Assembly: GCA_021827745.1 (NCBI GenBank)
Contig: JAKAUI010000033.1
Location: forward strand, 1-57,721
Direction of reading: 5' to 3'
Length of the DNA stretch: 57,721 bases
Source of the DNA: Bacillota bacterium
Lineage (GTDB): Bacteria > Bacillota > Sulfobacillia > JAJZYS01 > JAJZLH01
Made by a program: the position numbers and the translations under genes. Every line of letters starts with the position of its first letter. The first letter of the stretch is position 1. Under the pieces are notes generated by a model, which did no database searches, was not told the origin of the DNA, and saw only the letters and a program-made list of their open reading frames with translations. This document shows, piece after piece, positions 1-17,262 of the stretch.

Positions 1-137
1 TCGTCGTCGATCAGGTTGATCTTTCGATACGCCTCGTTGCGATCGTTCGGCTTCATCTCAACCGCCCGCCGGCGCAACGTCTCCTTGGTCCGCTCCAACT
101 CGGCCACCCGAGCCTTCAGATCCACGGGACCTTTCAT
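1..137 (-). CDS. Hypothetical protein, 3' end cut by window edge
   Basis: An ATG at 137 opens a frame that stays open to the window edge, giving 45 visible codons. A Shine-Dalgarno GGGAGG lies 7 bases upstream. The visible peptide is strongly charged and probably helical, rich in Lys, Arg and Glu between residues 8 and 28, and ends in an acidic NLIDDD-like run. It is the last visible member of the minus-strand gene string that includes the VirD4-like and replication-relaxation genes, 82 bases after the preceding stop. No family is recognised, and the short visible part limits any call. Confidence 0.5.
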   Translation of the reverse strand, partial: MKGPVDLKARVAELERTKETLRRRAVEMKPNDRNEAYRKINLIDD

Positions 138-219
138 CGCCCAGCCTCCCAGCCGCTCTCTGTCGCTGGCATCTTCCGTCTCTCCACCTTAATCCTGCCG
201 CACTGGCGGCGACAAGCCA

Positions 220-1053
220 TCACTTGCCCTGCTCAAGGGCCAGCGCCTTGGCCTCGGCTGTGCGGTCCAACTGCGGCGACACGATGCCGACTTGCTCAAG
301 AGACCAGTCCCGTGCCGCATCGGCTGGCACCACCAGCCACTGTGCCCCGCTGCTGAAATGGAGCGGAGCACCGGGCAGCACCTCGGCGACAAGGCTCGGG
401 CCCTCGCCCCAGACCCGCACCTCGGCAATCAAGGCGCTCCAGGGCAGGCTGCCGCTGGTGTTGGTCCATACCTCTTCTGCAAAGAGCGGCGCCTTCAGCC
501 ACTGACCGCCCTGCACCGCCTGGGCCAGGACCGCCACCGTATCGGCCACCGCCGTACTGCCGCTCGATCCGGCCGCGCTCCGCCAGGCGGCCACCACCTC
601 GGCGCCGCTCTGGGCGGTGGCGCCTGTGCGCACCCCGCCCAGCTGGTCGATCTCGGACGAAAGGGCGGGAAGCGGCATGACGGCGACCGGGAAGGGCGGC
701 ACGTGCAGCAGGCTCGCCACCGTCTGGCCAAGCAGGGAGCTTCCGCCAAAGGCGTAGGCCTGACCGATTTCCTGCGGGCCGTAGCCAGCCAAGCTGATCC
801 GGGTGTTGGGCGGGATGATCAGGACGCTGGTCCGACCGGCGTGGTGGTTGACCAAGAGCAGCACGGCAGCCACCGCAACGACGCCGCTTGGCCCAGCAGA
901 CGGCATGGTTCCGACTACCAGCACGGTGGACGGCAGCACCGCCTTGGGCATGGCCGCCAAGGCCATCAGGCCGCGGTGGATGCCAAAGCCTAAGATCAGC
1001 ATGATCAGCGTCCCGACCAGAAGAGCCCGGCCCTGCCGGCGCCTCGAGCTCAT
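220..1053 (-). CDS. LCP (LytR-CpsA-Psr)-like membrane protein, degenerate
   Basis: 277 aa with one N-terminal membrane helix (about residues 11-34) and an extracytoplasmic remainder. Residues about 75-130 follow the LCP pattern: a hydrophobic strand, then IIPPNTRI (79-86) where active members have IPRDTR, then YGPQEIGQAYAFGG (91-104) where the family has the K-I-N-x-A-Y-x-x-G-G stretch, then a late DQLGGV. LCP proteins transfer undecaprenyl-linked polymers onto peptidoglycan, using Arg and Asp residues that hold the pyrophosphate. Here the usual R-S-D and the Arg-Asp of IPRD are not conserved, so the protein is probably non-catalytic or altered in function. It overlaps the upstream gene by 4 bases (ATGA), so the two are likely translationally coupled. 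The LCP link rests on motif spacing and is moderate. Confidence 0.6.
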   Translation of the reverse strand: MSSRRRQGRALLVGTLIMLILGFGIHRGLMALAAMPKAVLPSTVLVVGTMPSAGPSGVVAVAAVLLLVNHHAGRTSVLIIPPNTRISLAGYGPQEIGQAYAFGGSSLLGQTVASLLHVPPFPVAVMPLPALSSEIDQLGGVRTGATAQSGAEVVAAWRSAAGSSGSTAVADTVAVLAQAVQGGQWLKAPLFAEEVWTNTSGSLPWSALIAEVRVWGEGPSLVAEVLPGAPLHFSSGAQWLVVPADAARDWSLEQVGIVSPQLDRTAEAKALALEQGK

Positions 1054-1598
1054 CGCTCGACGCCGTCCAGGGCGAGAAGGGCGCCTTCAAGATCTGCTCC
1101 CACTCCGACCAGGCAAAGACCGCAGGCGGCCAACGTGGTCGTGATCAGGTCCGTGCGGGAGGGAGGCGCCACCACCACGAGCGGCAGCGCAACCACCTCC
1201 TGGCCGTATTCCCGATACCGCCACCACTTGTGGCGGAGCACTGTCCCAGACTCGGTGCCGCGGTCTACCTCGACCGCCACCGGCAGGCCGCCCAGGTGCA
1301 AGAGGGCGTCCGGATCGAGGCTGCGCTGACCGCCGGCCGGCGACCGATAGCGAAGGTGCGGACTGACCGTGAGCGCCCCTGGCGGGTGGCCGAGCCCGAG
1401 AAGATCTACCAGCAGCTGGGCGACTGCCAACTGGTGGTCGACCAGCCGGGGCACGGGGCCCCGGCACCAAAGCCCAAGCGGGCGATGATAGGCGAAGCCG
1501 GCCGCCTTCAGGTCGCGGCAAGAAGGTCCCCATGGCCCAAGCCTGCGCCGCTGGCCGGCGCCGAGCAGGCCCAGCTCTGCCACTGCGTCAGGCACCAC
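1050..1598 (-). CDS. Replication-relaxation family protein
   Basis: 182 aa. The C-terminal half has the hallmark of the Replic_Relax family found on plasmids and integrative elements of Gram-positive bacteria: DPDALLHLGG (about 95-104), AVEVDRGTE (108-116) and a following Lys-Trp-Arg-Tyr region (123-131). The N-terminal half carries the VDHQLAVAQLLVDL helix (53-66) that usually precedes it. Family members are linked to replication or relaxation of mobile DNA; their biochemistry is poorly known. The GTG start at 1598 lies inside the 3' end of the VirD4-like gene (11-base overlap), and the stop overlaps the next gene by 4 bases. That packing implies one transcript with the coupling ATPase, supporting a role in element transfer or maintenance. 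Confidence 0.65.
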   Translation of the reverse strand: MVPDAVAELGLLGAGQRRRLGPWGPSCRDLKAAGFAYHRPLGLWCRGPVPRLVDHQLAVAQLLVDLLGLGHPPGALTVSPHLRYRSPAGGQRSLDPDALLHLGGLPVAVEVDRGTESGTVLRHKWWRYREYGQEVVALPLVVVAPPSRTDLITTTLAACGLCLVGVGADLEGALLALDGVER

Positions 1599-3081
1599 GG
1601 GGGGTGGGCAACCTCACCAGGCGGGGGTCGAGCAGACGGCCGGACAAGACCACCTGGACCAAAGCCAGCCCACGCGGCAGGCTGTGCACCAGTTCCGGGG
1701 CAAACTTGGTCTCCTTGACCAGGGTACGGCTCTTGATCAGTCCGCCGGCATCTTCGGTCACCCGCACACCGACCCTGGCGCCGAGCGTGTCCTTGAGCCG
1801 GGCCAGGTCCTGGCCGGACACCCCACCCAAGAGCACCCGATTTCGGCAGTTGGCCAAGACCGACTGGATCAGGGGCTCCGGCAGCTGACTGAGGTTCTGG
1901 TGGGCCAGCACGGCGCCGACCCGATCCTGGCGGGCGAGCTCGAGGAACTGGGCGAAGGAGCCTGTGGCAAAGGTCTGAAACTCGTCCACGTACAAGAAGT
2001 GCGGCGCACCCTCCATCCGACCGAGGGCGGCCTGCTGCAGCCTGCTCAGGAGATAGGCTCCGAACAGCCGGCCGGAGTCGCCTAGCTGACCGGCCGGCAG
2101 GGAGACGACCAGCACCTCGCCCTCTTTGAGGATGCGCTCAAGCGGCAAGGAGGCATCGCCGCTCATCATCCGACGCACCTCGGGATGGTCGGTCAAAGAC
2201 TGCAGGGCGTTTCTCAAGCCGAGCGTGTACTCGCGCTGCGCCTTTACCGTCCACTGGGCGTACTCGCGCCGAAAATAGGCGCGCACCTCCGGGTCGGTGC
2301 AGCGCACCAGCACGGCGCGGCGAACGTCCTCCTCTGCCAAAAACGCCTGCAGGTCGGCCAGCCCAGCCGTTTCGTCCGGCGTCGACTTCACGGCCAGGAC
2401 AGACTGGCGCAAGAGGGTGCGGCCCAGGGTGTGAAAAAAGCTGTCCGTGCTCGAAAACAGCTTGTCGAAGGCCTGGACCATGGACTCGGCCGCCTGGGCG
2501 CTCTCGCCGGCCAGCGGGTTGAAGGCGTCGGCAAGGCCCGGCCCCAGGGCGGTGACCGCCCGACCCAGTCGCTTCGCTTCTTGAACTACTGCCGCCGCCA
2601 GGTCGCCCTTGGGGTCGATCACGGTGATCCCGACCGGCCGTCTCAGGTCCTGGCGGATGAGCGGGGACAGCACGCTCGCAGTCTTGCCGGAGCCAGTTGG
2701 CCCCAGCACGTGCAGGTGCAGGTAGCGGTCGTCTTTTGAGATCAGGACCCGGCTGCGCATCCAGCCGCTGGTCCCGATCACCGCCGGGTAGTCCTGATCG
2801 GCCACAAAGCGGCCGCGCACCGCCTGCCAGATCCACAGGGCAACTGCCGCTTCGGCCAAGAAGGAGAACAAGAGCCACCAGCCACCGGCGGCCCGCAGGT
2901 CGGACAGCATAGGAAGCACGACGCCGCCGAACACGAACAAGATGCTGAGGCCGTAGCGCAGGTGAATCGGGCGGGCCAAGGGCGAGCGCCAGAACCCGAC
3001 CACGGCCAGGGCTCCAAAGATCAAGGCCAGCTCCCAGGGCCAGGGCTGGGTGTAGGCCAGAATCAAGTTGACAAAGCCCAC
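1588..3081 (-). CDS. VirD4/TraG-type coupling protein ATPase
   Basis: 497 aa. Two or three N-terminal membrane helices (about 14-90) precede a cytoplasmic P-loop domain. Walker A is GPTGSGKT (127-134) and Walker B FLYVDEF lies near residue 360, with a Gln-Thr-Phe after it as in TraG/VirD4/TraD proteins. These membrane-bound hexameric ATPases bring a DNA-relaxase complex to a secretion channel. No relaxase or other type IV secretion gene is visible, so this may be the edge of an element, a decayed one, or a coupling ATPase with another job. GTG 3081 is given as start, but it lacks a good ribosome site. The best one, GGGGGGAG at 3132-3139, sits 5 bases before an in-frame ATT codon at 3126-3124, so the true start may be there. 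Confidence 0.75.
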   Translation of the reverse strand: MGFVNLILAYTQPWPWELALIFGALAVVGFWRSPLARPIHLRYGLSILFVFGGVVLPMLSDLRAAGGWWLLFSFLAEAAVALWIWQAVRGRFVADQDYPAVIGTSGWMRSRVLISKDDRYLHLHVLGPTGSGKTASVLSPLIRQDLRRPVGITVIDPKGDLAAAVVQEAKRLGRAVTALGPGLADAFNPLAGESAQAAESMVQAFDKLFSSTDSFFHTLGRTLLRQSVLAVKSTPDETAGLADLQAFLAEEDVRRAVLVRCTDPEVRAYFRREYAQWTVKAQREYTLGLRNALQSLTDHPEVRRMMSGDASLPLERILKEGEVLVVSLPAGQLGDSGRLFGAYLLSRLQQAALGRMEGAPHFLYVDEFQTFATGSFAQFLELARQDRVGAVLAHQNLSQLPEPLIQSVLANCRNRVLLGGVSGQDLARLKDTLGARVGVRVTEDAGGLIKSRTLVKETKFAPELVHSLPRGLALVQVVLSGRLLDPRLVRLPTPRGA

Positions 3082-3138
3082 ACCGATCGCCCAGGGGCCG
3101 ATGAGGCGGGCCGTCAGGCTCTTAATGCAAGCTCCCCC

Positions 3139-5388
3139 CTAGCGCCGGATCTTGACCCGGGGATCTGTCGCCGGCTCCAGGATGTCCGCCCCGGCTGCCG
3201 CCAGGGCGTCGCGTTCCCAGGGATGGCAGGTCAGGACCACGACCTGGCGGTGGGCAGAGATCTCGGCCAGGGCGCTGACCAAGCGGCCATGCCGTCCGGG
3301 GTCGAGGTGGGCGGAGGGCTCGTCGACGATCAGCGGCATGGTCTCATCGGGAAACACAAGCTCGCACAGCGCCAGCCGCAGGCTGAGGTAGACCAGGTCC
3401 TGGGTGCCCTGAGACAGCTGACCAGGAGACCGCAGGTCGATCTCTCCCGGCCCCGTGATCCGGGGCGTGGCCGTGTCCTCTAGGGTGGCCTGATTGTACC
3501 GCCCGTCGCTCAGCCGCTCCAGCCAGCCGCCCATCCGCTTGGCCAGCTCCGGGCCCATCTCGCGGTGGAACTCGGCGCCGACCGCGCTCAGGATCTCATG
3601 GGCCAAGAGGAGGGCGCTGCGCTCACGCTGGCGGCGGACGACCTGGTCGTCTGCCCGCCGATAGGCTGCCTCCAGCTCCGGCAGGTCGCTGTTCTCTCCG
3701 AGCCGCCGGCTGAGCGCACGGGCCAGCGTCTGACTCGTGACCTGGCTGGCGTGAAGCGCCTCTTCCAGTCGCTTCACTTCAGCGTCCTTGGCCAGGAGAT
3801 CTCCGGGCACAGCCGTCTCGGATCCAGCCTGCCAGGCTGCAAGCGTCGACTCGGGCAGGTCCAGAAGCCGGCTCTGCGCCTCTCTCGCCGCCTTCAGCTC
3901 CTCTTGCAGTTCGGCCAGGTGCCTTAGCTTCTGCTCGATCTCAGCGCCGTCCGCCCCCTCGCCCAGGCCCCCGACCAAACGGGTGAGGTCCGCCTCGGTC
4001 CGCTGCGCCAGCTCAAGCCGGGCCTGAGCAGAGGCCTCGAGGCGCTCGGCATCCGCCATCCAGGTCTCCCGGGACTCCTGGTCCCGGCGCCAGGTCGCCC
4101 AGGCGGTCTCCACCCGGCGCACCAGATCGACGGTGAGCTCGGACGCCCCGGCCTCTGCCGCCAGGGCTGACTGCTGGCTGGAGCCAGATGTCGTACCGGG
4201 CCGGGCGAGCCGGCTCCAGGCAAGGAGCGCCACAGCCGCCACCAGCCCCGCTGCACCGCCTGCCGGCTGGCCACTGGCAAAGAGCGCTGCTGCCGCCACC
4301 ACCAGCACGATGCTGGCCAGCCACGGCCACCAGGCGCCACGAGGGGACGGGGCCAGCTTCGGGCGGTTCAGCTCCTGCCAGGCCCGATCCACCCACTCGG
4401 GCGAGGCAGGCGGCGGCTTTGGCTCCGCTGCCGCCTGCTGGCGCAGGGATTGGGCTCGCTCTTGTTCTTGGCTGGCGGCGGTCCGGGCGGCGGCGATGGT
4501 GGCCTTCAGGCCCTCTGCCGCCTTGGGATCGATCTGGGCGAGCGCCGCAAGCGGCTTCAGCTCCTGTTCGAGCTCCTCGATCCTGGCCCGATTCGCCGTG
4601 AGCGCGCCCAGGCGCTCGGTGGCCACCCAGCGCCTGATGGCGGCCTGCTGGCGTCTCGCCTCTTGCAGGGCCGCCTCTTGTTCTCTTGCCAACTGCGCTG
4701 CCGACTCCTGGGCTGCCTGGTCCTGCAGGGTGTCCTGGCGCTGTTTTGTGATGTCGGCGAGCTGCGCCGCGAGCTGGTTTCGGCTGGCGATGGCCAGGCC
4801 GATCTTGGTCTGCCCCGGCTGATCGCTCCTCCCGACCTCGCCGAGCTGCTTTTCGATCAGGGTCAGCGCCCGGCTGACCGAGACCGTCTCATCGCCGCTG
4901 GCGGTCAGGTTGGAGGAGCGCTCGTGCAGGGCCTGGGGGTCGATCGCCGCGATCGGCAGGTCGGAGATCAGGACGCTGGCCCGAAACAGATCGGCCGACA
5001 CGCCAGTGAGCAGGTCGAGGGCGACCGCCCCTCGCTCGCCCTTGCGAACCAGGTCTTCGCCGCTGGCTCGGTCGGTCACGGTCAGATCGTCCTTGCGATC
5101 TCCCAGGCGACGGACAACGGTCAGACGCTGGCCAGTGGCGAGCGCCACGTCCACCGCCACCGTGAAGTCTCCTCCGCCCCAGGGCTTGAGGCGGGCGACC
5201 TCGTGGCGTTCTTTGCGCCGGGAGCCATTCAGGTCACTTGCGCCGTACAGGGCGGCGAAGATGGCCTCGGCCAGCGTGGTCTTGCCTGTTTCGTTGGCGC
5301 CGTGCACGACACAAAGGTGCTGTGGCAGCTCCAGCTCGAGCGACTCGAACAGCCCAAAGCCGCGGGCCCGCACCCGTTCAATAATCAT
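3139..5388 (-). CDS. YhaN-like SMC/SbcC-type ATPase
   Basis: 749 aa, starting at ATG 5388 behind GGAGG (the frame is open further upstream, but MIIERVRARGFG is the natural family start). Walker A is GANETGKTTL near residues 30-40, the ABC-type signature is LSQGTQDL near 660, and Walker B is LIVDEPSAHLD near 695. Long Ala/Glu/Gln/Arg-rich coiled coils surround two short hydrophobic helices in the middle (about 360-400), as in Bacillus YhaN. With the metallophosphoesterase it overlaps by 11 bases it should form an SbcCD/Rad50-Mre11-like DNA-end processing complex, perhaps membrane-linked. The family assignment is firm; the substrate is inferred. Confidence 0.85.
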   Translation of the reverse strand: MIIERVRARGFGLFESLELELPQHLCVVHGANETGKTTLAEAIFAALYGASDLNGSRRKERHEVARLKPWGGGDFTVAVDVALATGQRLTVVRRLGDRKDDLTVTDRASGEDLVRKGERGAVALDLLTGVSADLFRASVLISDLPIAAIDPQALHERSSNLTASGDETVSVSRALTLIEKQLGEVGRSDQPGQTKIGLAIASRNQLAAQLADITKQRQDTLQDQAAQESAAQLAREQEAALQEARRQQAAIRRWVATERLGALTANRARIEELEQELKPLAALAQIDPKAAEGLKATIAAARTAASQEQERAQSLRQQAAAEPKPPPASPEWVDRAWQELNRPKLAPSPRGAWWPWLASIVLVVAAAALFASGQPAGGAAGLVAAVALLAWSRLARPGTTSGSSQQSALAAEAGASELTVDLVRRVETAWATWRRDQESRETWMADAERLEASAQARLELAQRTEADLTRLVGGLGEGADGAEIEQKLRHLAELQEELKAAREAQSRLLDLPESTLAAWQAGSETAVPGDLLAKDAEVKRLEEALHASQVTSQTLARALSRRLGENSDLPELEAAYRRADDQVVRRQRERSALLLAHEILSAVGAEFHREMGPELAKRMGGWLERLSDGRYNQATLEDTATPRITGPGEIDLRSPGQLSQGTQDLVYLSLRLALCELVFPDETMPLIVDEPSAHLDPGRHGRLVSALAEISAHRQVVVLTCHPWERDALAAAGADILEPATDPRVKIRR

Positions 5389-6460
5389 TGGCCCGCCTCC
5401 CCTCCAGCGCCGCCAGCCCGATGCGCAGGGCATCTGCCAGCGCTTCCCGACGCGCCTCGTCTGCCGTCTCCATCTCGGCCATCACCCGGCGGGCGAAGCG
5501 TCCCGGCACAGTGAAGGTGTCGGTGAGATCGACGGCTGGAAGACGCAGGTCCCGCACCTCGGACGCGACCCAGTCGCTTCCGATCTCTCCCTGCCAGCGA
5601 CCGACCGGCCATCCCTCTTCGGCGCCGGGGCCGACCAGCTCCACCCGGAGCAGGGTGGTCTCCCGCACCCACTGTCGGGTCTGGTCGTTGAACGACTCGA
5701 GCGCCTGCTGATCGGTCCGGGCGGTCAGGTCGACGCTGACCGTCTCGTATCGGCAGCGTGCCAGCGGCACAAGTCGCCACCTCTGCTCTCTCGCCTTCAG
5801 ATCCACCTCAACCAACAGCGCCCCATGCACCCCCGGCTCGTCGAAGCCAAGCGGCTCCAACGATCCGGCATAGGCCCCCAGCTCGCCGATCGGCATCGGC
5901 CGATGGATGTGTCCGACCGCCGCCCAGATCGCCTTCAGCTCAGCCAGATGGCTGCGAGAAAAAGGGGCGTAGTCGCTGTCTGAAGGCGTCTTGTCCACAT
6001 CGCCGTGAAAGATCAGGACATCCGGCCGCTCCCCGCTCGGGAAGTCGGCCAGGGGATCGGCCGGCTCGTGCTCTTCGAGAAAGCCGCGGCCCCAGATGGC
6101 GGCATCGGCCACCTCGTGGCGCTGCCAGGTGCCGCCGAAGACCACCACATTGTCCGGCCGCGTCAGGTTCCAAAAACCGGACCGCTCCAGGGGATCGTGG
6201 TTTCCGGGTGCGATCAGGACCGGCACCGGCGCGAGAGAGCCGATCAGGTCGAGCGCCCAGCGCACGGTGCCAAGGCGGGTGCTGCGCCGCTCGAACAGGT
6301 CTCCGGGGAGCAAGAGGGCATCGGCCTGTTCAGTGCGCACGAGGTCGATCAGCCGCTGAAACGTCTCCATCTGACCCTTGCGCCGACGTCTGCCGAGCTC
6401 ATCGTCCAGGGTGGCGAAGGGGCTGTCCAGATGCATGTCGGAGGCTTGAACCAGGCGCAT
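5378..6460 (-). CDS. YhaO/SbcD-like metallophosphoesterase (DNA repair exonuclease)
   Basis: 360 aa from ATG 6460, chosen because MRLVQASDMHLDSPF is the family start; the frame runs 38 codons further with no recognisable protein. Calcineurin-type metal motifs are clear: DMHLD (7-11), GDLFERR (about 50), GNHDP (about 83), then FHGDVD and GHIHRP further on. These bind two metal ions for phosphodiester cleavage. It matches YhaO/SbcD (Mre11-type) nucleases, and the YhaN-like ATPase gene starts inside its last codons (11-base overlap), as expected for the two-subunit nuclease. It is the first gene of the minus-strand string. Confidence 0.85.
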   Translation of the reverse strand: MRLVQASDMHLDSPFATLDDELGRRRRKGQMETFQRLIDLVRTEQADALLLPGDLFERRSTRLGTVRWALDLIGSLAPVPVLIAPGNHDPLERSGFWNLTRPDNVVVFGGTWQRHEVADAAIWGRGFLEEHEPADPLADFPSGERPDVLIFHGDVDKTPSDSDYAPFSRSHLAELKAIWAAVGHIHRPMPIGELGAYAGSLEPLGFDEPGVHGALLVEVDLKAREQRWRLVPLARCRYETVSVDLTARTDQQALESFNDQTRQWVRETTLLRVELVGPGAEEGWPVGRWQGEIGSDWVASEVRDLRLPAVDLTDTFTVPGRFARRVMAEMETADEARREALADALRIGLAALEGRRANDY

Positions 6461-6614
6461 CGAGCGGCCCCCCGTTTCCCTGAAGCTTCCGGCCGCTGAT
6501 CTTTCCGCAAGGCCAACAGCGCTACCTGCCGGACTTGACGCGACAGGGCGCCTGGCCCCACCCTGAAGGCGCACAAGAGCGGGGGCCTCGGGGCCCGAAG
6601 AGGAGGACCCGGCG

Positions 6615-7004
6615 TTGTTGATTCCGATGCTGAAGGCGAAGCTGCATAGGCTGACCGTGACCCAGGCCGAGCTGAACTATGTGGGCAGCATCACGCTCGA
6701 CCAGAAGCTCTTGGACGCTTCCGGGATCCGCCCCTACGAGCTGGTGACGATCACCAGCCTGCAAAACGGCACCTTCTGGCAGACGTACGTCATTGCCGCT
6801 GAGAGCGGATCGGGCACCGTCTGCCTGAACGGGTCGTCGGCCCGCTGGTTCGCCCCAGGCGACACCATCATCGTGATGGCCTACAACCAGTACGCAGAAG
6901 ACGACCTGAAGCACTACCAGCCAAAAGTCGTGTTCGTTGACGCAAAGAACCAGATCACCCGGATCAGCGTGGACGAGTCCCCGTTCACGGTCTTCCAGCC
7001 TTAG
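6615..7004 (+). CDS. panD: Aspartate 1-decarboxylase
   Basis: 129 aa, full length for the family. PanD converts L-aspartate to beta-alanine for pantothenate and CoA. It is made as an inactive proenzyme that self-cleaves between Gly and Ser to form a pyruvoyl cofactor; the site is seen in LNYVGSITLD (Gly24-Ser25). The MLKAKLHRLTVTQ N-terminus is typical. The start is TTG 6615, because AGGAGGA at 6601-6607 is 7 bases upstream; the first ATG (6627) is too far from that site and would remove conserved residues. TTG 6618 is an alternative. The gene stands alone, divergent from the YhaO/YhaN string; no other pantothenate gene is in the window. Confidence 0.93.
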   Translation: MLIPMLKAKLHRLTVTQAELNYVGSITLDQKLLDASGIRPYELVTITSLQNGTFWQTYVIAAESGSGTVCLNGSSARWFAPGDTIIVMAYNQYAEDDLKHYQPKVVFVDAKNQITRISVDESPFTVFQP

Positions 7005-7118: not shown

Positions 7119-9164
7119 ATGAGAGCCTGGCCGTGGCGGCACCTGGTGCGGTGGCCCCTTGTATTCGTGATCTCGATGACGGTCGCCGGCTGCGGCGCCT
7201 CAACCACCGTGGCGCCGACGGCGCCGGCGCGTCCGGCGCCGCTGATGGCCCAGTCGGCGAAGCCGCCGACCGTCACCGGCGCCTGGCTGAAGGTTCCGGC
7301 CGGCTCGGTCCGTCCCGGTCAGCGGGTCACAGTCAGCGGGTACCTGCCAGGAAGCGAGCCGACGTCCGCCTCAGCCGCCTCCTCGAGCTTCGCCACCTTG
7401 TGCTTCGGCGGCTGCACGAGCGGCCTTTCCGAGTCGGCAGTTTCCGTGCACTGGTCGTCTGGCAGCAAAGACCACTTCACCATGACGCTTTTTGTCCCGG
7501 CCACCGCCTGGATGACCCCCACCGGACCGCAGCCGCTTGAAAACGGCACCTACCGGGTGTCCCTGCAGTGCCTGATCATGAGCCCAGGCTGTGCGCTGGG
7601 CCCGAGTGAGGTCAGCACTGTGGTCCATATGGCCCATGTCAGCTATCACCCCTGCCCGAAGACCGCCTGCGGGTTCATCTCGCTATCTGCCAAGACGGGC
7701 GCCCCGGGAAGCCTGGTCCAGTTTCACGGCTGGGCCCCGCTGTCTGAGCTCATCGGCACGCCCTTTCCCTACACCCTGGTGATGGTCCCGGGCAATCTCA
7801 GCTCTTCCTTCGTCGTGACCATCCCCGCGAAGGGCGGCGGCACCCAAGTCCCGGGCAGCCAGGTGGCCTCCGTCCAGCAGGCGCTGAACGGCACCTTCTC
7901 CGGCTCGCTGCGCATCCCAGCCATGCTGTCGTCGGGCCCGACGTCTGTGTCGCCTGGCCGCTACACGCTGGCCCTGCAGGGTTCCTTCAACCAGCCGGTC
8001 TTCACAGACATCACCTTTGCGCCGACCGCCGTCTCGGTCAGCGCCAACCAGACCTGGGCCAGCCTCGGCCCCATCACGCCGATCGCCTCCACGTTGAGTG
8101 CGAGCCTCTATGCTCCGACCGTCCTGGCGTCTTCCAGCACACCGAGCCAGATCGCGGCCTGCGTCACCAGCCAGATCCGTCTTTCCACGAACGGCGGCCA
8201 GAGCTGGTCTGTGGTGCCGGATAGCGGCGTGATCCAGGCCGCCGCCAAAACCTCCTATCCGCTGGCCATCTCCTTCAATGGCACCCACGGAGCGCCGTGC
8301 ATCTCGGCCCTGGCCGACCCGGCGCACCCAAACACCATCTACGCCACCTTCGTGGCTGAGTTCGCCCCGTACCAGTCCATCCCGCCCACCTTCACCGTCG
8401 GCTACGTGACGACCAACCTTGGCCGCACCTGGTCCGCTGTGCCCGCACCCTCTGGCTACACCCTGGGCGACTTCGGCGGCTTCCAAGCAGACGGGGCGAC
8501 AACGCTCGCGCTCTTCGACCGCATGACGAGCGCAAACGGCCCATACCAGACCGCCCTGCCGGGCGCCGTGATAGAGACGGCGAACGGCGGCCTGACCTGG
8601 ACGTCTGGCCAGCTCGCCTGCCCGGCTCTGGGGCCGTGCCTGCGCTTTGGCGCCGCGCCTGCCCAGACCGGCGGCATGGGCGTCGGCTATGCCCAGTCTC
8701 TCGAACTCTCGGTCAACGGCGGAGGCAGCTGGAAGAGTCCGGCCTGGCCGTCTCAGGTCACGCTCAATCAGGGCCCGAGCCAGCTGGTGGCGCTCACCTC
8801 CAGCCGGGCGCTGCTGCTTTCCGGCTCCTCTCAATACCTGCTGCGCCTGACCAAGGACGGTGGGCAGACCTGGCAGAACATCGCCCTGCCGCCTGTTCCA
8901 GACGCCCAAAATGGCGCCTTCGGACTGAACGACGCCCTGATCCTGCCCTCTGGGGCCCTCTTGGCCAGAGACCCGAACGGCCAGTCCTGGATCCTGCTCG
9001 AGCCAGGCCAGAGCGCCTGGTGCACGCTCACCGGCCTGCCCTCTGGCTTCGTCTCGCAGCCGGTGGCGACCTCGGGCCGCCTGTGGTATGTGTCTGGCTC
9101 GGCGACCGGCAGCGGGGAGGCCGTGACCAGCACGCCGCTCAGCGCCATCCACTGCGGCGGCTAG
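7119..9164 (+). CDS. Secreted lipoprotein: Cys-rich N-terminal module plus Asp-box beta-propeller
   Basis: 681 aa. A lipoprotein signal peptide ends at VAGC (lipidated Cys25), followed by an Ala/Pro/Thr-rich linker. Residues about 50-300 form an Ig-like module with paired cysteines (LCFGGC, CLIMSPGC, CPKTAC). The C-terminal ~350 residues hold repeated Asp-box sequences of the sialidase/BNR type: STNGGQSW, TTNLGRTW, TANGGLTW, SVNGGGSW and TKDGGQTW, so a six- or seven-bladed propeller is likely. Catalytic sialidase arginines were not identified, so a binding or scaffold role is as likely as an enzyme. The Cys-rich module recurs in the lipoprotein at 18122-18934. The gene is monocistronic and convergent with fdhD. 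Confidence 0.75.
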   Translation: MRAWPWRHLVRWPLVFVISMTVAGCGASTTVAPTAPARPAPLMAQSAKPPTVTGAWLKVPAGSVRPGQRVTVSGYLPGSEPTSASAASSSFATLCFGGCTSGLSESAVSVHWSSGSKDHFTMTLFVPATAWMTPTGPQPLENGTYRVSLQCLIMSPGCALGPSEVSTVVHMAHVSYHPCPKTACGFISLSAKTGAPGSLVQFHGWAPLSELIGTPFPYTLVMVPGNLSSSFVVTIPAKGGGTQVPGSQVASVQQALNGTFSGSLRIPAMLSSGPTSVSPGRYTLALQGSFNQPVFTDITFAPTAVSVSANQTWASLGPITPIASTLSASLYAPTVLASSSTPSQIAACVTSQIRLSTNGGQSWSVVPDSGVIQAAAKTSYPLAISFNGTHGAPCISALADPAHPNTIYATFVAEFAPYQSIPPTFTVGYVTTNLGRTWSAVPAPSGYTLGDFGGFQADGATTLALFDRMTSANGPYQTALPGAVIETANGGLTWTSGQLACPALGPCLRFGAAPAQTGGMGVGYAQSLELSVNGGGSWKSPAWPSQVTLNQGPSQLVALTSSRALLLSGSSQYLLRLTKDGGQTWQNIALPPVPDAQNGAFGLNDALILPSGALLARDPNGQSWILLEPGQSAWCTLTGLPSGFVSQPVATSGRLWYVSGSATGSGEAVTSTPLSAIHCGG

Positions 9165-10067: not shown

Positions 10068-10496
10068 ATGACCACCAGACGGCGCCGTATGCTTTGGCTC
10101 TGGTCGCTTTTTGCCCTCGTCCTGACGCAGCTCAGCCTGGGCCTCGCCATGGCCGCCCATCTCCCGATCGTGGCCAATCACGGCATCGCCTTTGGCCTCT
10201 TGGCCAAGGCCGGCGTCCTGCCCCTTTTGCTGGAGGCCACAGGCGTGGTGCTCGTTCTCTTGGCGGCACGGCTCTGGCCGAGTCCATGGCTGTGGCCGGA
10301 AGCGATCACGATCGGCGGCGCCATCGGCAATCTCCTGGACCGGATCGTGCTCGGCGCCGTGCCGGACCCGCTGCACCTTTCGCCCTATCCGTACAGCTTC
10401 AATCTGGCCGACCTCTTGATCCGCCTCGGCCTGATCGTCTGGCTTGTCTCCCTGGCCGTGGCGGCCCTGCGGCGGCGCAACGCTCAGCGACGGTGA
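10068..10496 (+). CDS. lspA: Signal peptidase II (lipoprotein signal peptidase)
   Basis: 142 aa with four predicted membrane helices. LspA cleaves prolipoprotein signal peptides after diacylglycerol has been added to the lipobox Cys. The two catalytic aspartates are visible in GNLLDR (Asp91) and FNLADLLI (Asp115), and NHGIAFGLL (37-45) matches the conserved substrate loop. Met1 is used, although Met8 could also start translation. At least three lipoproteins (7119, 18122 and 39730 genes) are encoded in this window. The gene is convergent with the MFS gene, overlapping its end by 13 bases. Confidence 0.9.
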   Translation: MTTRRRRMLWLWSLFALVLTQLSLGLAMAAHLPIVANHGIAFGLLAKAGVLPLLLEATGVVLVLLAARLWPSPWLWPEAITIGGAIGNLLDRIVLGAVPDPLHLSPYPYSFNLADLLIRLGLIVWLVSLAVAALRRRNAQRR

Positions 10497-11761
10497 AAGT
10501 GGGCCAGGTCCGGCTGGTCGGGCAGCGGCGATCTGGCCAGACCGGAGGCGAGGAGGGCGAGGGCCACGGCGATGCCGCCGAGGGCTGCCACAAAGAACGT
10601 GCCCCTGACCCCGATCGAGGTGGCGAGAAGCCCGGCGCCGAGCGCTCCGAGGACGCCTAGGGTGCCCTGCACCCAGCTTGTGGCGCCGTTGATCCGGCCG
10701 AGGAAGCGGTCCGGCGTGATCGCCTGGCGCAGGCTGACCTCTGCGATGTCGTAGACCGTTCCGGTGAGGTCGCCCAGAAGCTGGGCAGCGGCCAGGGCCA
10801 AGACTGCGATCAGCCAGGGACCCCGGGCCAGCGGCACCAGCAACATGAACAGGGCCGAGCAGAGCAGGCCAAAGACCATGGCTCGACCCACGCCCAGTTT
10901 TTTGGCCAGCGGGTCAAAGACGCTCGCTCCGACCAGCGACCCCACGCCGCCAAGCGTGATCAGGACCCCCATGGTCAGGGGACTGATCGAAAGCACCCGC
11001 AGCACGTAGAGCTCATAGAGCGTGCCAAAGGCACCGCCCCAAAACAGGCTCATCCCGCCCGACGCGACGAGCAGCCAGCGCAGCACCGGATGGGCCAGAC
11101 TGGCCCTGAGCCCGGCGGTGGCCTCTTGGCTCACGGCCTGCTCGGCGGTTTTCTGGGGGTGCGGCTCAGAGCGGCGGATTGAGATCAGGGTCAGGGCTGA
11201 GAAGAGATAGGAGAAGGCGTCCGCCAAGAGGGTCAGGGGCGCACCCAGCACCTGCACCAGCGCTCCCATCAGGGTGGGGCCGGCGATCTCGCCGCTGGCG
11301 GCCGCCACATTCATCAGCGCGTTGCCTTCGGTCAGGCGGTCTCGCCCGACCAAGGACGGCAGGTAGGCCTGATCGGCGATGGCATAGACGACCGTGATGG
11401 CGCTCACCACAAGTGAGACCAAGAGCAGCTGCCAAAAGTCCAGGCTGTGCGTCAGCCACAGCACCGGAATCGCCAAGAGCGCGAGTGCTCGCAAGAGATC
11501 GCCAAAGATCATGATCGGCCGCCTGCGCCTTCGGTCGGCCAGGTTGCCGGCGATCGGGCTGAGCAAGAGACCTGGCAGCATGGTGACAGCCGCCAGCCAG
11601 GAGAGCTGAAGTGGCGTGGCCGAAAGCACCAGCACGGCGGCCACCGGCAGCCCTTCGCGGCTGATCCGGGACCCGACCTCCGACACCACCCGGCCGACCA
11701 GGTAGCGGCGGGTGGATGCGTCTTTCAAGAGCGGCGCTGGGCGATCTCGGCTGTCTCTCAC
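10484..11761 (-). CDS. MFS transporter (putative efflux type)
   Basis: 425 aa from GTG 11761, which overlaps the stop of the proline dehydrogenase gene as GTGA, so translation is probably coupled. The frame stays open upstream, but that part is antisense-like sequence inside the neighbour and is excluded. About 12 hydrophobic helices are present with the MFS loop 2-3 signature GNLADRRRRRP and a related motif in the second half. It resembles Bacillus/actinobacterial drug-efflux MFS proteins with an N-terminal LVGRVVSEVGSRI helix. The operon position after a proline dehydrogenase could mean amino-acid or metabolite transport, but the sequence itself looks like the multidrug type. Substrate unknown. 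Confidence 0.75.
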   Translation of the reverse strand: MRDSRDRPAPLLKDASTRRYLVGRVVSEVGSRISREGLPVAAVLVLSATPLQLSWLAAVTMLPGLLLSPIAGNLADRRRRRPIMIFGDLLRALALLAIPVLWLTHSLDFWQLLLVSLVVSAITVVYAIADQAYLPSLVGRDRLTEGNALMNVAAASGEIAGPTLMGALVQVLGAPLTLLADAFSYLFSALTLISIRRSEPHPQKTAEQAVSQEATAGLRASLAHPVLRWLLVASGGMSLFWGGAFGTLYELYVLRVLSISPLTMGVLITLGGVGSLVGASVFDPLAKKLGVGRAMVFGLLCSALFMLLVPLARGPWLIAVLALAAAQLLGDLTGTVYDIAEVSLRQAITPDRFLGRINGATSWVQGTLGVLGALGAGLLATSIGVRGTFFVAALGGIAVALALLASGLARSPLPDQPDLAHFHRR

Positions 11762-12678
11762 CGGGCCCAGAGATTCTTCAGAAAGAAGGCGAGGTTCGCC
11801 GGCCGCTCCGCCAGCCGGCGCATGAAGTACGGATACCAGTCCGGGCCAAAGGGCACGTAGACCCGCACCTGCCAGCCCTCCGCCACCAGCTGGCGCTGCA
11901 GGTCGGGCCGGATGCCAAACAGCATCTGGAACTCGAAGCGATCGCGGCCGATGCCGTGGCTTTTCACGTAGGCCACGGTGGAGTCGATCAGCGCCGGGTC
12001 GTGGGTGGCCACGGCGGTGAAGCAACCGGCGCCAAGGTGCATCTCGACCAGACGCTGGTAGTTGCGGTCCACCTCCGCCTTGTCTGCGAAGGCGATCGGC
12101 TCGGCCTCCAGGTAGGCTCCCTTCACCACCCGCACATTGGCCCCTAATTCGGCCATCTTTCTCATGTCCGCCTCAGAGCGCCTGAGGTAGGACTGGATCA
12201 CGATCCCGACCGCCGGGTGGGCGGGCCGCAGGTGCGAGAACAGCTCCACCGTGGCCTCGGTGTGCCGGCTGTCCTCCATGTCGATGCGCACGAAGCTGCC
12301 GGTGGCCTCGGCCCGGCCGACGATCTCGACCAAGCGCCCTTCAGCCGCCTTGGGGTCGAGATCCAAGCCCAGCTGGGTCAGCTTCAGGGACACATGGGAG
12401 GAAAGACCCGCCTCTTTGATCTTGTCCAAGATGGCGAGATAGGCGGCCTTGGCCCCATCGGCCGTGCTGTGGTCCACCTCGCCCTCGCCCAGGCGGTCGA
12501 GCGTCACCAGAAGCCCCTGGCGATTTAGGGCCAACACCACCGGCACCGTCTCCTCGAGCGTGGTGCCAGCGACAAAGCGAAAGGCTCCCAGCTTCGGCCC
12601 GTAGCGGTGCACCAGCCTGGCCACATCCTGACTGTCGGCAGCGGCCAGGATGACTCTGCGCAACAGGGGTTGACTCAT
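11758..12678 (-). CDS. Proline dehydrogenase (monofunctional, FAD-dependent)
   Basis: 306 aa, the usual length of the one-domain enzymes of Bacillota and Deinococcus-Thermus. It oxidises L-proline to 1-pyrroline-5-carboxylate and passes electrons from FAD to the quinone pool. TIM-barrel motifs are evident: VSLKLTQLGLD (about 96-106), RIDMEDSRHT (about 130), NVRVVKGAYLE (about 182), EFQMLFGIR (about 250) and the C-terminal PDWYPYFMRRLAERPANL-like substrate-binding helix with paired Arg residues. The ATG overlaps the stop of the gene before it by 4 bases, and the MFS gene overlaps its own stop, so all three form one operon. A divergent aldehyde dehydrogenase could take the next step. Confidence 0.92.
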   Translation of the reverse strand: MSQPLLRRVILAAADSQDVARLVHRYGPKLGAFRFVAGTTLEETVPVVLALNRQGLLVTLDRLGEGEVDHSTADGAKAAYLAILDKIKEAGLSSHVSLKLTQLGLDLDPKAAEGRLVEIVGRAEATGSFVRIDMEDSRHTEATVELFSHLRPAHPAVGIVIQSYLRRSEADMRKMAELGANVRVVKGAYLEAEPIAFADKAEVDRNYQRLVEMHLGAGCFTAVATHDPALIDSTVAYVKSHGIGRDRFEFQMLFGIRPDLQRQLVAEGWQVRVYVPFGPDWYPYFMRRLAERPANLAFFLKNLWAR

Positions 12679-13034
12679 GCCAGAGGCGGCTGCGTCGGCA
12701 CCGGGGTGGTTCCGAAGTGGTCCTCACTAGAGGCCGGCATCAAGATGCGCATCGAGACCACGGCGAAGGCGCCGCCGTCTTCCAAGTGCCCGAGTCCCCT
12801 TCCCCAGAGCAGCCGGCCGTTTCCGCCCTTGTCCACCATCTTCAAGGCGACGGACAGGCGGGCTGGCCGGTTCACGGGCTTGAGCAGGTCGCACTCGGCA
12901 GCCAGCACCTTCGTGTCCTGGCCAAAGAGCTCCGCCGCCAGCGGTGCGAACAGGGCCAGCACGTCCAGCCAGGAGGCCTCTCCTGTGCCGGTCAGCGAAA
13001 CCTCTTTTGTGATCTCGTCTCCGATCGCCACCAT
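12675..13034 (-). CDS. Hypothetical protein, possibly hotdog-fold thioesterase-like
   Basis: 119 aa when started at ATG 13034, which has GGGAGGGG 9 bases upstream; a GTG at 13076 would add 14 weakly protein-like residues. The sequence alternates strands and one long helix (ASWLDVLALFAPLAAELFG) and ends in strand-rich segments, a pattern compatible with a small hotdog fold, but no catalytic signature is seen. It is first in the proline dehydrogenase operon (4-base overlap with that gene). A link to proline metabolism is inferred only from this coupling. Confidence 0.6.
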   Translation of the reverse strand: MVAIGDEITKEVSLTGTGEASWLDVLALFAPLAAELFGQDTKVLAAECDLLKPVNRPARLSVALKMVDKGGNGRLLWGRGLGHLEDGGAFAVVSMRILMPASSEDHFGTTPVPTQPPLA

Positions 13035-13188: not shown

Positions 13189-14664
13189 ATGCCGATCTCC
13201 GCAGCCGACACCGCCCTGCCAAGGGATGTGCCCACCGACCTCTTGATCGGCGGCCGCTGGCGTCCGGCGAAGAGCGGACAACGGCTGACCGTTTCTGATC
13301 CGGCCACCGAGCAGGCTTTGGCCCAGGTGGCCGACGGCTCGGCCGAGGACGCGAAAGAGGCGCTTTCTGCCGCTGCTCGGGCCTTCTTTGCGTTCAGGAA
13401 GACGTCTGCCTACCAGCGCAGCGCCTGGCTTCGCACTTGGTTCGAGGCCATCCGCCGGGAGCGCCATAACCTGGCCCGGCTGATCACGCTCGAAAACGGC
13501 AAGCCCCTGACCGAGGCCCTGGCCGAGGTGGACTACGCGGCGAGCTTCGTGGAGTGGTTTTCGGAAGAAGGCAAGCGGGCCTATGGCCGTACCATCCCGG
13601 CCACCGGCACGAGCCGCCGCCTGCTGGCCATCCGCCAGCCGGTAGGGGTGGTGGCGGCGATCACGCCCTGGAACTTCCCGGCCGCCATGATCACGCGCAA
13701 GGTGGCGCCAGCTCTGGCCGCCGGCTGCACCGTGCTCTTGAAGCCGGCCTCCCTGACGCCGCTCACCGCCCTGGCCCTGGCCAGGCTGTGGCAGGAGGCG
13801 GGCGGACCGGACGGATCGTTGAACGTCGTCACCAGCACCAAGGCGGCCGCGATTGTCGACGCCTGGATGGCAGACTTTCGGGTGCGCAAGGTCACCTTCA
13901 CCGGATCGACGCCGATCGGCCAGGACCTGATCAAAAAGTCGGCCGCCCAGGTGCAGCGGCTGTCATTGGAACTGGGCGGGCAGGCGCCTTTTGTCGTCTT
14001 CGACGACGCCGACCTCGAGCGCACGATCGCCGCCCTCCTCGTCAGCAAGTTCCGAAACGGCGGCCAGTCCTGCGTCGCCTCAAACCGGATGCTGGTGCAG
14101 CGCACGATCCTGCCCGCCTTCATCTCCCGAGCCACGGCCGCTGTCTCGGCGCTCCGCATCGGGCACGGCCTTGAGCCAGGGGTGGAGCTTGGTCCGCTGA
14201 TCGACCAAGCCGGGCGAACGAAGGTGCTCAGCCACATCAAAGACGCCCTGGCCAAGGGCGCGCAGCTCAAGTCTGGCGGACAGGCGCTGGAAGGGGCCGG
14301 CTTCTTCGTTCAACCGACGGTGCTGACCGATGTTGGCCCCGGCATGCTGGTGATGGAAGAGGAAACCTTCGGCCCGGTGGTGGCGATCAGCGCCTTTGAC
14401 ACAGAAGAAGAGGGCGTGGCGCTGGCCAACGCCAGCCCGTTCGGGCTCGCTGCCTATGCCTTCACCGAATCTGCCAGCCGGGCCTGGCGGGTGGCGGAGG
14501 CCTTGGAGTACGGCATCGTCGGCCTGAACGAGGGCCTACCGTCCACCGCCCAGGCGCCGTTTGGCGGCTGGAAGCTCTCCGGGATCGGCCGCGAGGGAGC
14601 GAGCGAAGGGCTGGACGCCTTTTTGGAAGAGAAGTACATCGCCTGGGGCGGCATCGACGGCTGA
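13189..14664 (+). CDS. NAD(P)-dependent aldehyde dehydrogenase, succinate-semialdehyde type
   Basis: 491 aa, complete ALDH fold. Catalytic residues are visible: Asn162 in TPWNF, the general base Glu261 in LELGGQ and nucleophile Cys295 in GGQSCVASNR. The segment YGRTIPATGTSRRL (132-145) and KFRNGGQSC are typical of succinate-semialdehyde dehydrogenases (GabD) and related alpha-ketoglutarate-semialdehyde dehydrogenases. It diverges from the proline dehydrogenase operon across about 150 bases, so it may instead oxidise glutamate semialdehyde from proline; P5C dehydrogenases are usually longer (~515 aa) and differ in sequence. Substrate therefore open among these C4-C5 semialdehydes. ATG 13189 follows GATAGGAGGCGAGCG, a strong ribosome site. 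Confidence 0.85.
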   Translation: MPISAADTALPRDVPTDLLIGGRWRPAKSGQRLTVSDPATEQALAQVADGSAEDAKEALSAAARAFFAFRKTSAYQRSAWLRTWFEAIRRERHNLARLITLENGKPLTEALAEVDYAASFVEWFSEEGKRAYGRTIPATGTSRRLLAIRQPVGVVAAITPWNFPAAMITRKVAPALAAGCTVLLKPASLTPLTALALARLWQEAGGPDGSLNVVTSTKAAAIVDAWMADFRVRKVTFTGSTPIGQDLIKKSAAQVQRLSLELGGQAPFVVFDDADLERTIAALLVSKFRNGGQSCVASNRMLVQRTILPAFISRATAAVSALRIGHGLEPGVELGPLIDQAGRTKVLSHIKDALAKGAQLKSGGQALEGAGFFVQPTVLTDVGPGMLVMEEETFGPVVAISAFDTEEEGVALANASPFGLAAYAFTESASRAWRVAEALEYGIVGLNEGLPSTAQAPFGGWKLSGIGREGASEGLDAFLEEKYIAWGGIDG

Positions 14665-14697
14665 CGCTCCGACCCGGGTTGGTGCCCTCTGCTTGGA

Positions 14698-15312
14698 TCA
14701 GACGGCCGGCGGCTCTTCAACGGGTGCGCTTTTCGGCCGCGCCCGCTTGCGGCCGACAGTCAGGAGGAGAAAGTGGGAGAGCACGGAGCGCTCTTCGACG
14801 ACGCTGAGGCCGGCCGCTGTGAACACCTGGATGCGCTCTCGGGCGCTCGGGGCAGGGGCGGCGCCCACCCTGCGCACCCACCGCGCGGCGTGGTCTGCCA
14901 AAATGAACCGGCCGTCCGTCTTGAGAACCCTGGCCACGTCGCGGACCCCCGCTTCCTTGTCCGTCCAGTGGTGAAAGGACATCGTGCTGAGCGCCAGATC
15001 AACCGACTCTGACTCCAAGGGGAGATGTTCGGCGGGTCCGACAACGAACTGCCCGTAGGTCGCCCTCCGCCGCGCCTCGGCGATCATCCCGGGCGAGATG
15101 TCGACACCCACCACCGTCGCATCCGGCCAGCGGCGATGGGCCTCCCGCAGGAGCCGACCAGTGCCGCAGCCCACATCCAGCACTGCGGCCGGAACCATAG
15201 TGCTCCCAGCAGCTAAGAAGATCGCCGCATGCACGCGGTCGAACAGCAGGCGTTGAAGCACCGAACGCTCATAGGCAGGCGACCAGCGTTCGAATCTGTC
15301 TTCGCCGGACAT
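14698..15312 (-). CDS. Class I SAM-dependent methyltransferase
   Basis: 204 aa. The Rossmann-fold SAM motif I VLDVGCGTGRLL (about 44-55) and the post-I VVGVDISPGMI are clear, followed by LALSTMSFHHW (motif with His-His-Trp) typical of the UbiE/Methyltransf_11 group acting on small molecules or lipids. The substrate cannot be told. It probably ends an operon with DUF1028 and the OCD-family gene (47-base gap). It converges with the aldehyde dehydrogenase gene 33 bases away, with no obvious terminator between them. Confidence 0.8.
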   Translation of the reverse strand: MSGEDRFERWSPAYERSVLQRLLFDRVHAAIFLAAGSTMVPAAVLDVGCGTGRLLREAHRRWPDATVVGVDISPGMIAEARRRATYGQFVVGPAEHLPLESESVDLALSTMSFHHWTDKEAGVRDVARVLKTDGRFILADHAARWVRRVGAAPAPSARERIQVFTAAGLSVVEERSVLSHFLLLTVGRKRARPKSAPVEEPPAV

Positions 15313-15359
15313 CGACCATGCCTCCCAAACGGCTTGGTGCGGTCACCCGGGCCCTCTAT

Positions 15360-17155: not shown

Positions 17156-17262
17156 CTAGGCTGCCTCCCCAGAAAAGACGTCGGTCGCCGACATGACTCC
17201 ACGGCTTCGCCTCGGGTGGGTGGCTCCCTGCCGGACCCAATCGTAAGGAGGTCTCGCCTGCC

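Follow-up and report, generated by a model that had tools for sequence, protein, structure and literature searches.

On contig JAKAUI010000033.1 of a Bacillota bacterium (assembly GCA_021827745.1; GTDB lineage Bacteria; Bacillota; Sulfobacillia; JAJZYS01; JAJZLH01) we identified a gene pair for a VirD4-type coupling protein and a MOBC-type relaxase homologue, which is chromosomally fixed and vertically inherited in several families of its class. The window analysed is this complete contig of 57,721 bp (C55 of the 1.62-Mb genome G000, which consists of 64 contigs). Since a core resembling a type IV secretion system (T4SS) is encoded elsewhere in the same genome, DNA transfer is the best-supported reading for the pair, and with moderate confidence we regard pair and separate core as a domesticated, chromosome-fixed conjugation machine that would serve DNA exchange. 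A preliminary description of this DNA had proposed an unusual DNA-transfer or DNA-uptake unit; this part fits the pair best, while the unit is not the string of five genes to which it had been ascribed. In the following, G-numbers denote genomes of the class, f-numbers families, and L-numbers loci; the window's own genus comprises G000, G001, and G002.

Coupling protein and relaxase homologue

The two genes are located on the minus strand and overlap by 11 bases:

1588..3081, minus strand, VirD4-type coupling ATPase, 497 aa (T4SS-DNA_transf 31.0 bits; TrwB-like model)
1050..1598, minus strand, MOBC-type relaxase homologue (Replic_Relax), 182 aa (PF13814 45.5 bits)

The T4SS-DNA_transf domain of the VirD4-like protein was detected well above the Pfam cut-off of 20.1 bits. 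Its structure model revealed a mean predicted local distance difference test (pLDDT) value of 82, with low confidence for most of residues 1–100. The nearest known structure was TrwB (Z 30.6, root-mean-square deviation 2.9, 356 residues aligned, model residues 96–497), followed by the L. pneumophila coupling complex (Z 28.7), VirB4 (26.6), HerA (23.2), and FtsK (18.1). Three N-terminal hydrophobic segments (residues 18–36, 44–62, and 70–88) were indicated by hydropathy only and fall into the region of low model confidence. Judged from this model, the protein is a coupling protein of the VirD4/TrwB type, anchored in the membrane by its predicted N-terminal segments.

The preliminary description had listed the Replic_Relax gene but stated that no relaxase was visible. 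This was wrong, since Replic_Relax (PF13814) is itself a relaxase family, listed as the MobC relaxase superfamily in Table 1 of PMC5357655. PMC12857230 places the MOBC family among the relatives of PD-(D/E)XK restriction endonucleases and describes an N-terminal winged helix in TraX. The usual partner of the family is a VirD4 coupling protein, and according to PMC12479173 VirD4 and PF13814 occur together in integrative and mobilizable elements (IMEs). The window homologue exceeded the PF13814 cut-off of 25.3 bits and had no match in NCBIfam, PADLOC, or PHROGs. Its model (pLDDT 91) displayed a winged-helix-like order of elements (H-E-H-H-E-E) in residues 4–45, followed by a nuclease-like domain, so that the protein probably consists of a small winged helix and a PD-(D/E)XK-like nuclease domain. 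Structure comparison with VIA-align returned mostly restriction and repair nucleases, e.g., a chain of the XPB-Bax1 complex (Z 7.4), PspGI (7.2), BstEII (7.1), and EcoO109I (7.1), with a protein of unknown function in the top row (7.6). Because all Z values were under 8, the fold alone is modest evidence for a nuclease; Foldseek found no match to the model in the PDB at E <= 0.001, and the viral Foldseek list held no named relaxase matching it.

Stronger evidence for the relaxase identity is provided by H55, D97, E110, D112, K124, and Y128, which were invariant in 18 aligned sequences (the window protein and 17 homologues from six families) and form a candidate active site. The same six residues are kept in two PF13814 proteins of Bacillales plasmids. 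The MOBC assignment is based on Pfam and the literature. In G109 the relaxase match was split over two frames (L104, near 7754–8500), and this copy may be frameshifted.

Chromosomal fixation and inheritance of the pair

Searches against 154 genomes of the class matched the VirD4 profile in 56 (E <= 1e-40; 57 places) and the relaxase profile in 52, five of which had matches at more than one place. VirD4 was found at one place in 55 of its 56 genomes; in G002 the gene is split over two contigs. Both genes were present in 50 genomes, VirD4 only in six, and the relaxase only in two. The 50 pair genomes are spread over nine of 48 families (f1, f2, f3, f4, f10, f25, f26, f37, and f38). Among the 30 best loci of the 57 places, 26 had the relaxase gene directly downstream of VirD4 on the same strand; of the four others, L084 and L088 reach a contig edge, and L087 and L093 lack an adjacent relaxase.

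Generally, the pair lies among conserved chromosomal genes. Its neighbours in f10, f37, and f38 include PGM/PMM, MinC_C, DUF2103, FUR, ThrE, and glycosyltransferase genes, though not all of them at each locus, and this neighbourhood was also present in finished, single-contig chromosomes. In f4 the neighbours are SIMPL, MinC_C, and Mntp, and in f2 a thymidine kinase gene lies upstream. In the VirD4 tree, the 14 groups required 13 changes, which is the minimum, with f38 nested in f10; the branching order of f1–f4 was unresolved and several branches were long. A class clade of 37 rows had a Shimodaira–Hasegawa-like approximate likelihood ratio test support of 93 and left out the proteins of the Bacillales plasmids, f19/f48, f25, and f26. 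Within the own genus, all five genes of the string were under purifying selection according to the ratio of nonsynonymous to synonymous substitution rates, strongest for VirD4 (0.13 and 0.22, the lowest of the string) and weakest for YhaN and the LytR-CpsA-Psr (LCP)-like gene (0.24–0.47). Altogether, the pair is chromosomally fixed and vertically inherited in several families. The check for conserved gene order proposed in the preliminary description thus had a divided outcome: the pair is kept across families, the five-gene string is not kept outside the genus.

A mobile-element reading was rejected on the basis of conserved housekeeping synteny, the single VirD4 copy, and a tree that follows the families, integrases not having been searched genome-wide. 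By the same evidence, together with purifying selection, we consider it improbable that the pair is a mobilization module, i.e., an IME or its remnant hitch-hiking on conjugative elements like the streptococcal PF13814 elements, even though such IMEs are known to combine VirD4 with PF13814 (PMC12479173) and VirD4 relatives are found on Bacillales megaplasmids, with Replic_Relax nearby on two of three examined.

At the level of the phylum, 13 of 398 genomes matched VirD4 at E <= 1e-60, six of them in the own class. The seven matches outside the class have longer open frames (613–845 aa), and no relaxase match was found in the short flanks of the six loci examined for these genomes. VirD4 relatives without an adjacent relaxase were also seen at L116 (G059), L117, L118, L119, and L120; in the tree, the f19 and f48 proteins cluster with the Bacillales plasmid proteins.

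A separate T4SS-like core

An earlier reading without a mating pore, based on an empty PF19044 scan of G000, was overturned by a gene cluster at the place of a weak TIGR00929 match on contig C12. This core of the own genome is L148 (G000:C12:20000-37900, minus strand). Its genes are, with coordinates within L148:

17184-17513, minus strand, T4SS_pilin/TrbC protein of the VirB2 type (34.8 and 33.5 bits, above the Pfam cut-off)
16435-17187, minus strand, TrbL protein (38.0 bits, above the Pfam cut-off)
14210-16087, minus strand, VirB4-like ATPase (HerA/DUF87 20.8 bits, below the cut-off of 23.2)
11747-12748, minus strand, T2SSE ATPase (95.7 bits)
10444-11100, minus strand, T2SSF protein (23.0 bits, below the cut-off)

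Matches to TIGR00929 (VirB4), all below the cut-off, were obtained in 23/23 genomes, each of which had been chosen for having VirD4. Genes for the pilin, the TrbL-type protein, and the VirB4-like ATPase occurred together in 14 of the 15 pair genomes fetched, the own one included; G004 showed the VirB4-like gene only. These assignments are uneven, some resting on a Pfam cut-off and the rest on blastp clustering only. The VirB4-like proteins form one cluster, whose G102 member passes AAA_10 and P-loop_TraG. The TrbL-type proteins form one blastp cluster as well, in which only the own genome's protein, of three scanned, matches TrbL. The pilins fall into two clusters, and the G102 pilin passes its Pfam cut-off. 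T2SSE was detected in 10 of 16 fetched core loci. As for the surroundings, the core adjoins metG in G001, and this neighbour cluster recurs in G002, G005, and G007; in G112 the core lies near gatB and an amino-acid permease gene. A tree of the VirB4-like proteins (17 rows) groups f10, f37, and f38, as the VirD4 tree does, and f1 and f4 with one f2 protein. In G102, VirB4 is followed by a weak match to the SAF domain, which recalls CpaB.

The five-gene string in the own genus

In the window, the pair is part of a string of five genes, for which our coordinates agreed with the preliminary description (one direction, overlaps of 11, 11, and 4 bases, and one 57-base gap), all on the minus strand. 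YhaO and YhaN overlap by 11 bases, YhaN and VirD4 are separated by 57 bases, and the Replic_Relax gene overlaps VirD4 by 11 bases and the LCP-like gene by 4. The start codons of the five genes are our choice, and YhaO and YhaN have longer possible frames. The gene names given earlier also agreed with Pfam, except for the LCP-like gene, which fell below its cut-off. Besides the pair, this end of the window contains:

5378..6460, minus strand, YhaO-like phosphoesterase of the Mre11/SbcD type, 360 aa (Metallophos 1.3e-13; metal-binding motifs)
3139..5388, minus strand, YhaN-like ATPase of the Rad50/SbcC type, 749 aa (Pfam AAA_23 1.7e-14 and AAA_27)
220..1053, minus strand, LCP-like membrane protein, 277 aa (LytR_cpsA_psr 22.6 bits, below the cut-off)
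3..152, minus strand, small conserved open reading frame (ORF), start only, truncated by the contig end (tblastn to G002 and G001)

The YhaO protein reached 40.4 bits with SbcD (TIGR00619), below the cut-off of 77.65, and revealed the motifs D.H, GD, GNHD, HG, and GHIH, which we take to be metal-binding. YhaN harbours a Walker A motif at 30, LSQG at 658, and the Walker B-like PLIVDE at 685; a hydrophobic segment lies mid-protein (355–373), and the motif scan found no C..C motif. Both genes adjoin VirD4 in 3/3 genomes of the own genus. YhaO was matched in 16 of 18 genomes searched, with only 23–35% identity in the 13 outside the genus, where the match never lies at the VirD4 locus, being found on another contig or at a distant site. 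Linkage of YhaO/YhaN to the pair was thus seen in the own genus only.

The string is reminiscent of an operon that PMC9905601 describes for archaea (mre11, rad50, herA, and nurA), as it combines the same four functional classes, namely phosphoesterase, SMC-like ATPase, hexameric ATPase, and nuclease. Based on this parallel, YhaO–YhaN, the VirD4-like pump, and the PD-(D/E)XK nuclease could form a membrane-bound machine that acts on DNA breaks, with no transfer involved. The intact YhaO/YhaN motifs, the preservation of the string in all three genomes of the genus, and the HerA proteins among the structural relatives of the VirD4 model (Z 23.2 and below) are in line with it. Still, we regard such an end-processing machine as unlikely: the pair stands without YhaO/YhaN in other families, the ATPase, which carries membrane segments, is closer to TrwB (30.6) than to HerA (23.2), the window nuclease is PD-(D/E)XK-like whereas NurA has an RNase H fold according to PMC9905601, and the T4SS core would be left unexplained. 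Since ATPase and nuclease resemble VirD4 and a PD-(D/E)XK nuclease instead of HerA and an RNase H fold, the likeness to the archaeal operon is probably one of analogy, not of membership, although a family missing from a VIA list is not excluded by this. The arrangement was seen in one genus only.

Defence against phages or plasmids, of the HerA-nuclease type or that of the methylation-associated defence system (MADS), was suggested by PADLOC matches of mad8 to VirD4 (2.1e-20) and of mad3 to YhaN (3e-20). These profiles appear generic, because mad8 also matched YhaN (1.6e-7); other Mad proteins were absent among the five window proteins scanned with PADLOC, and a vertically inherited unit among housekeeping genes does not resemble a defence island, which makes a defence role highly improbable.

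The earlier notion of an LCP-like surface protein at the end of the string stands as far as a weak LCP likeness is concerned, yet the protein stays below the LytR_cpsA_psr cut-off of 24.6 and has lost the canonical letters. Its relative G003 (f2) encodes a full LCP protein after the relaxase (142 bits) with the letters VPRDTR, presumably the canonical motif, where the window protein has IPPNTR and lacks the following block. From this alignment it is probably a degenerate LCP protein and a neighbour rather than a component of the unit.

Since the window is one complete contig, no sequence exists to its left, where the preliminary description had advised looking for an integrase and VirB4; neither was present among ten ORFs scanned in the continuation of G002. 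In tblastn, the small ORF at the contig end was 66% (G002) and 82% (G001) identical to the ORF that follows the LCP-like gene in these relatives. Beyond the LCP-like gene, the ten G002 ORFs revealed by Pfam the small ORF, MazE-like, PIN, MurJ, transaldolase, GlpX, peptide release factor, and Sua5, and G001 carries the same gene clusters downstream. The pair of MazE-like antitoxin and PIN-domain genes is located at L047:2294-2960, in the relative's stretch beyond the window end. On the other side of the string, a divergent gene for PanD (aspartate decarboxylase) lies at window positions 6615–7004; members of its gene cluster also occur some 8 kb away from the pair in f4, hinting at an old shared neighbourhood. 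No sigma-70-like promoter was found in window positions 1–7000, and six terminator-like sites were detected there (mean of 2.5 in shuffled sequences), of which three fall within the VirD4 gene. The five genes may be co-transcribed.

A second MinC

In f4, f10, f37, and f38, the pair has a gene for a MinC_C-domain protein (MinC2) next to it or close by. The distance from VirD4 is about 2 kb in f2, whereas MinC2 of f25 and f26 sits on a different contig. With a threshold of 160 bits, which we set ourselves, the MinC2 profile was matched in 49 of the 154 genomes, 46 with and three without VirD4, counts that are not independent of phylogeny. Ten genomes had VirD4 without MinC2, namely G000–G002, G004, G010, and five without a relaxase match. 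The three genomes of the own genus (1.5–1.6 Mb) gave no MinC_C match at all, with FtsK present; most other genomes searched carry one or two.

As MinC2 stands beside or near the pair and tracks it in five families (f2, f4, f10, f37, and f38), the pair might be a DNA pump with a nuclease, placed by the MinC paralog at the septum for chromosome segregation. We assign this a low probability: FtsK/SpoIIIE was already matched in 20 of 21 genomes (19 above the cut-off), which also led us to reject a replacement of FtsK by the VirD4-like ATPase, the own genus keeps the pair without any MinC_C match, and a septal pump leaves the T4SS core unexplained.

Comparison with known systems

Systems of a MOBC relaxase and VirD4, i.e., pAD1 TraX, CloDF13 MobC, and the streptococcal PF13814 IMEs, share with the window pair, according to the literature cited above, PF13814, a nuclease of the restriction-endonuclease type, and the VirD4 partner; the winged helix reported for TraX (PMC12857230) is predicted in the window homologue. 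Unlike in these systems, the pair is chromosomal at a conserved site and vertically inherited, its relaxase is short (182 aa), and no mobile element was seen around it.

The archaeal Ced/Ted systems are, according to PMC9905601, likewise chromosomal, domesticated machineries of the VirB2/VirB6/VirB4 type, and in some genera rad50 and herA are part of the Ted loci. In contrast to them, the putative exchange system described here is bacterial and retains VirD4 as well as a relaxase homologue.

The Bacillales megaplasmids pGspE55-1 and pSC2 both carry VirD4 and Replic_Relax, as the window does, and pGspE55-1 (Geobacillus) additionally harbours a DUF87 ATPase gene beside PrgI, T2SSE, T2SSF, and CpaB genes. 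In comparison with pGspE55-1, the core proteins gave E values of 1e-12 to 1e-48 for VirB4-like proteins, 1e-16 to 1e-33 for T2SSE, and 1e-13 to 1e-17 for d10. Both differ from the window system in being plasmid-borne and typed as non-mobilizable, with a VirD4 of about 720 aa that falls outside the 37-row class clade and a relaxase gene that is not directly downstream of it. Further chromosomal T4SSs of bacteria that serve DNA release or uptake are that of the gonococcal genetic island and Helicobacter ComB. They are island-borne with another relaxase type, or relaxase-free and ComEC-dependent, and neither is known to be a class-wide MOBC pair.

Proposed function of pair and core

As we picture it, the machine would consist of two halves: a DNA-processing half, formed by the chromosomally fixed VirD4 coupling protein and MOBC-type relaxase, and a separate T4SS core of VirB2-type pilin, TrbL/VirB6-like channel protein, VirB4-like ATPase, and often T2SSE. 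The relaxase would nick chromosomal DNA, a membrane-anchored VirD4 hexamer would take over the strand and pump it, and the T4SS core would carry it across the envelope, leading to DNA exchange between cells of lineages in which no ComEC match was obtained; both the joint action of the two loci and the direction of transfer belong to this proposal. Where a MinC paralog lies nearby, it may determine the position of the unit, and in the own genus, where the pair is appended to YhaO–YhaN, these proteins may process the DNA ends that transfer uses or creates.

ComEC (PF03772) was matched in none of 11 pair genomes, the own one included, and in all three genomes without the pair; the control set of this search was matched in 10 of 14 genomes. 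A wider reading, in which several families of the class have given up ComEC-type transformation for a fully domesticated two-locus conjugation machine that exchanges their own chromosomal DNA, retains relaxase and coupling protein, and is steered by MinC2 in five families and wired to YhaO/YhaN in the own genus, is tentative and appears rather doubtful to us as a whole. No paper was found that combines Sulfobacillus with VirD4 or with ComEC, nor one that combines three of YhaN, YhaO, Rad50, and Mre11.

Several observations weigh against a conjugation machine made up of pair and core. Most of them concern the VirB4-like ATPase: none of the 23 genomes reached the TIGR00929 cut-off, and the PF19044 scan, empty in G015–G019, was equally empty in G000, G001, G005, G006, G010, G013, and G014. 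The own protein has only its DUF87 match (20.8, cut-off 23.2) and TIGR00929 at 2.5e-5, and in the own genus its Walker B motif is atypical, while a simple pattern search missed Walker A in 4 of 16 VirB4-like proteins. Among the other core proteins, the TrbL-type proteins of G005 and G112 lack a TrbL match and were assigned by blastp clustering, and the G005 pilin is just under its cut-off (26.3, cut-off 26.6). The core was sought only in genomes already carrying the pair, so that it may not be specific to them, and the two loci lie far apart in the chromosome. As for the pair, three relaxase homologues of the class are below the Pfam cut-off (L060, L108, and L114), and the relaxase match of f3, f25, and f26 is weak and not beside VirD4, lying 22.7 kb away on the same contig in f3 and on other contigs in f25 and f26. 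Moreover, the related Bacillales plasmids are typed as non-mobilizable, the own genus and f3 are without MinC2, and the ComEC contrast comprises 14 genomes only and is split along family lines. Nicking and transfer are deduced from sequence.

The four VirB4-like proteins without a recognisable Walker A motif, those of L153 (G020), L156 (G111), L158 (G085), and L162 (G004), may be inactive or divergent. Some T4SSs secrete proteins, and the odd Walker motifs of VirB4 in some genomes, together with the relaxase match in two frames of G109, would fit a protein-secretion T4SS with the relaxase homologue as a vestige. With the candidate active-site residues of the relaxase invariant in 18 sequences from six families, we give this explanation only a very slight probability.

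Altogether, a role in repair only, as a septal pump, or in defence has a lower probability, and DNA exchange by a domesticated conjugation machine is the most economical function for pair and core and, in our view, their best reading. PF13814 and VirD4 on one contig are therefore no proof of a mobile element. The usual carriers of conjugation machines are mobile elements, and a bacterial machine that is inherited vertically and retains both coupling protein and relaxase would add another case. If this holds true, it would reveal a possible way of gene exchange in lineages that lack ComEC and aid the interpretation of the archaeal exchange systems, which have no relaxase.

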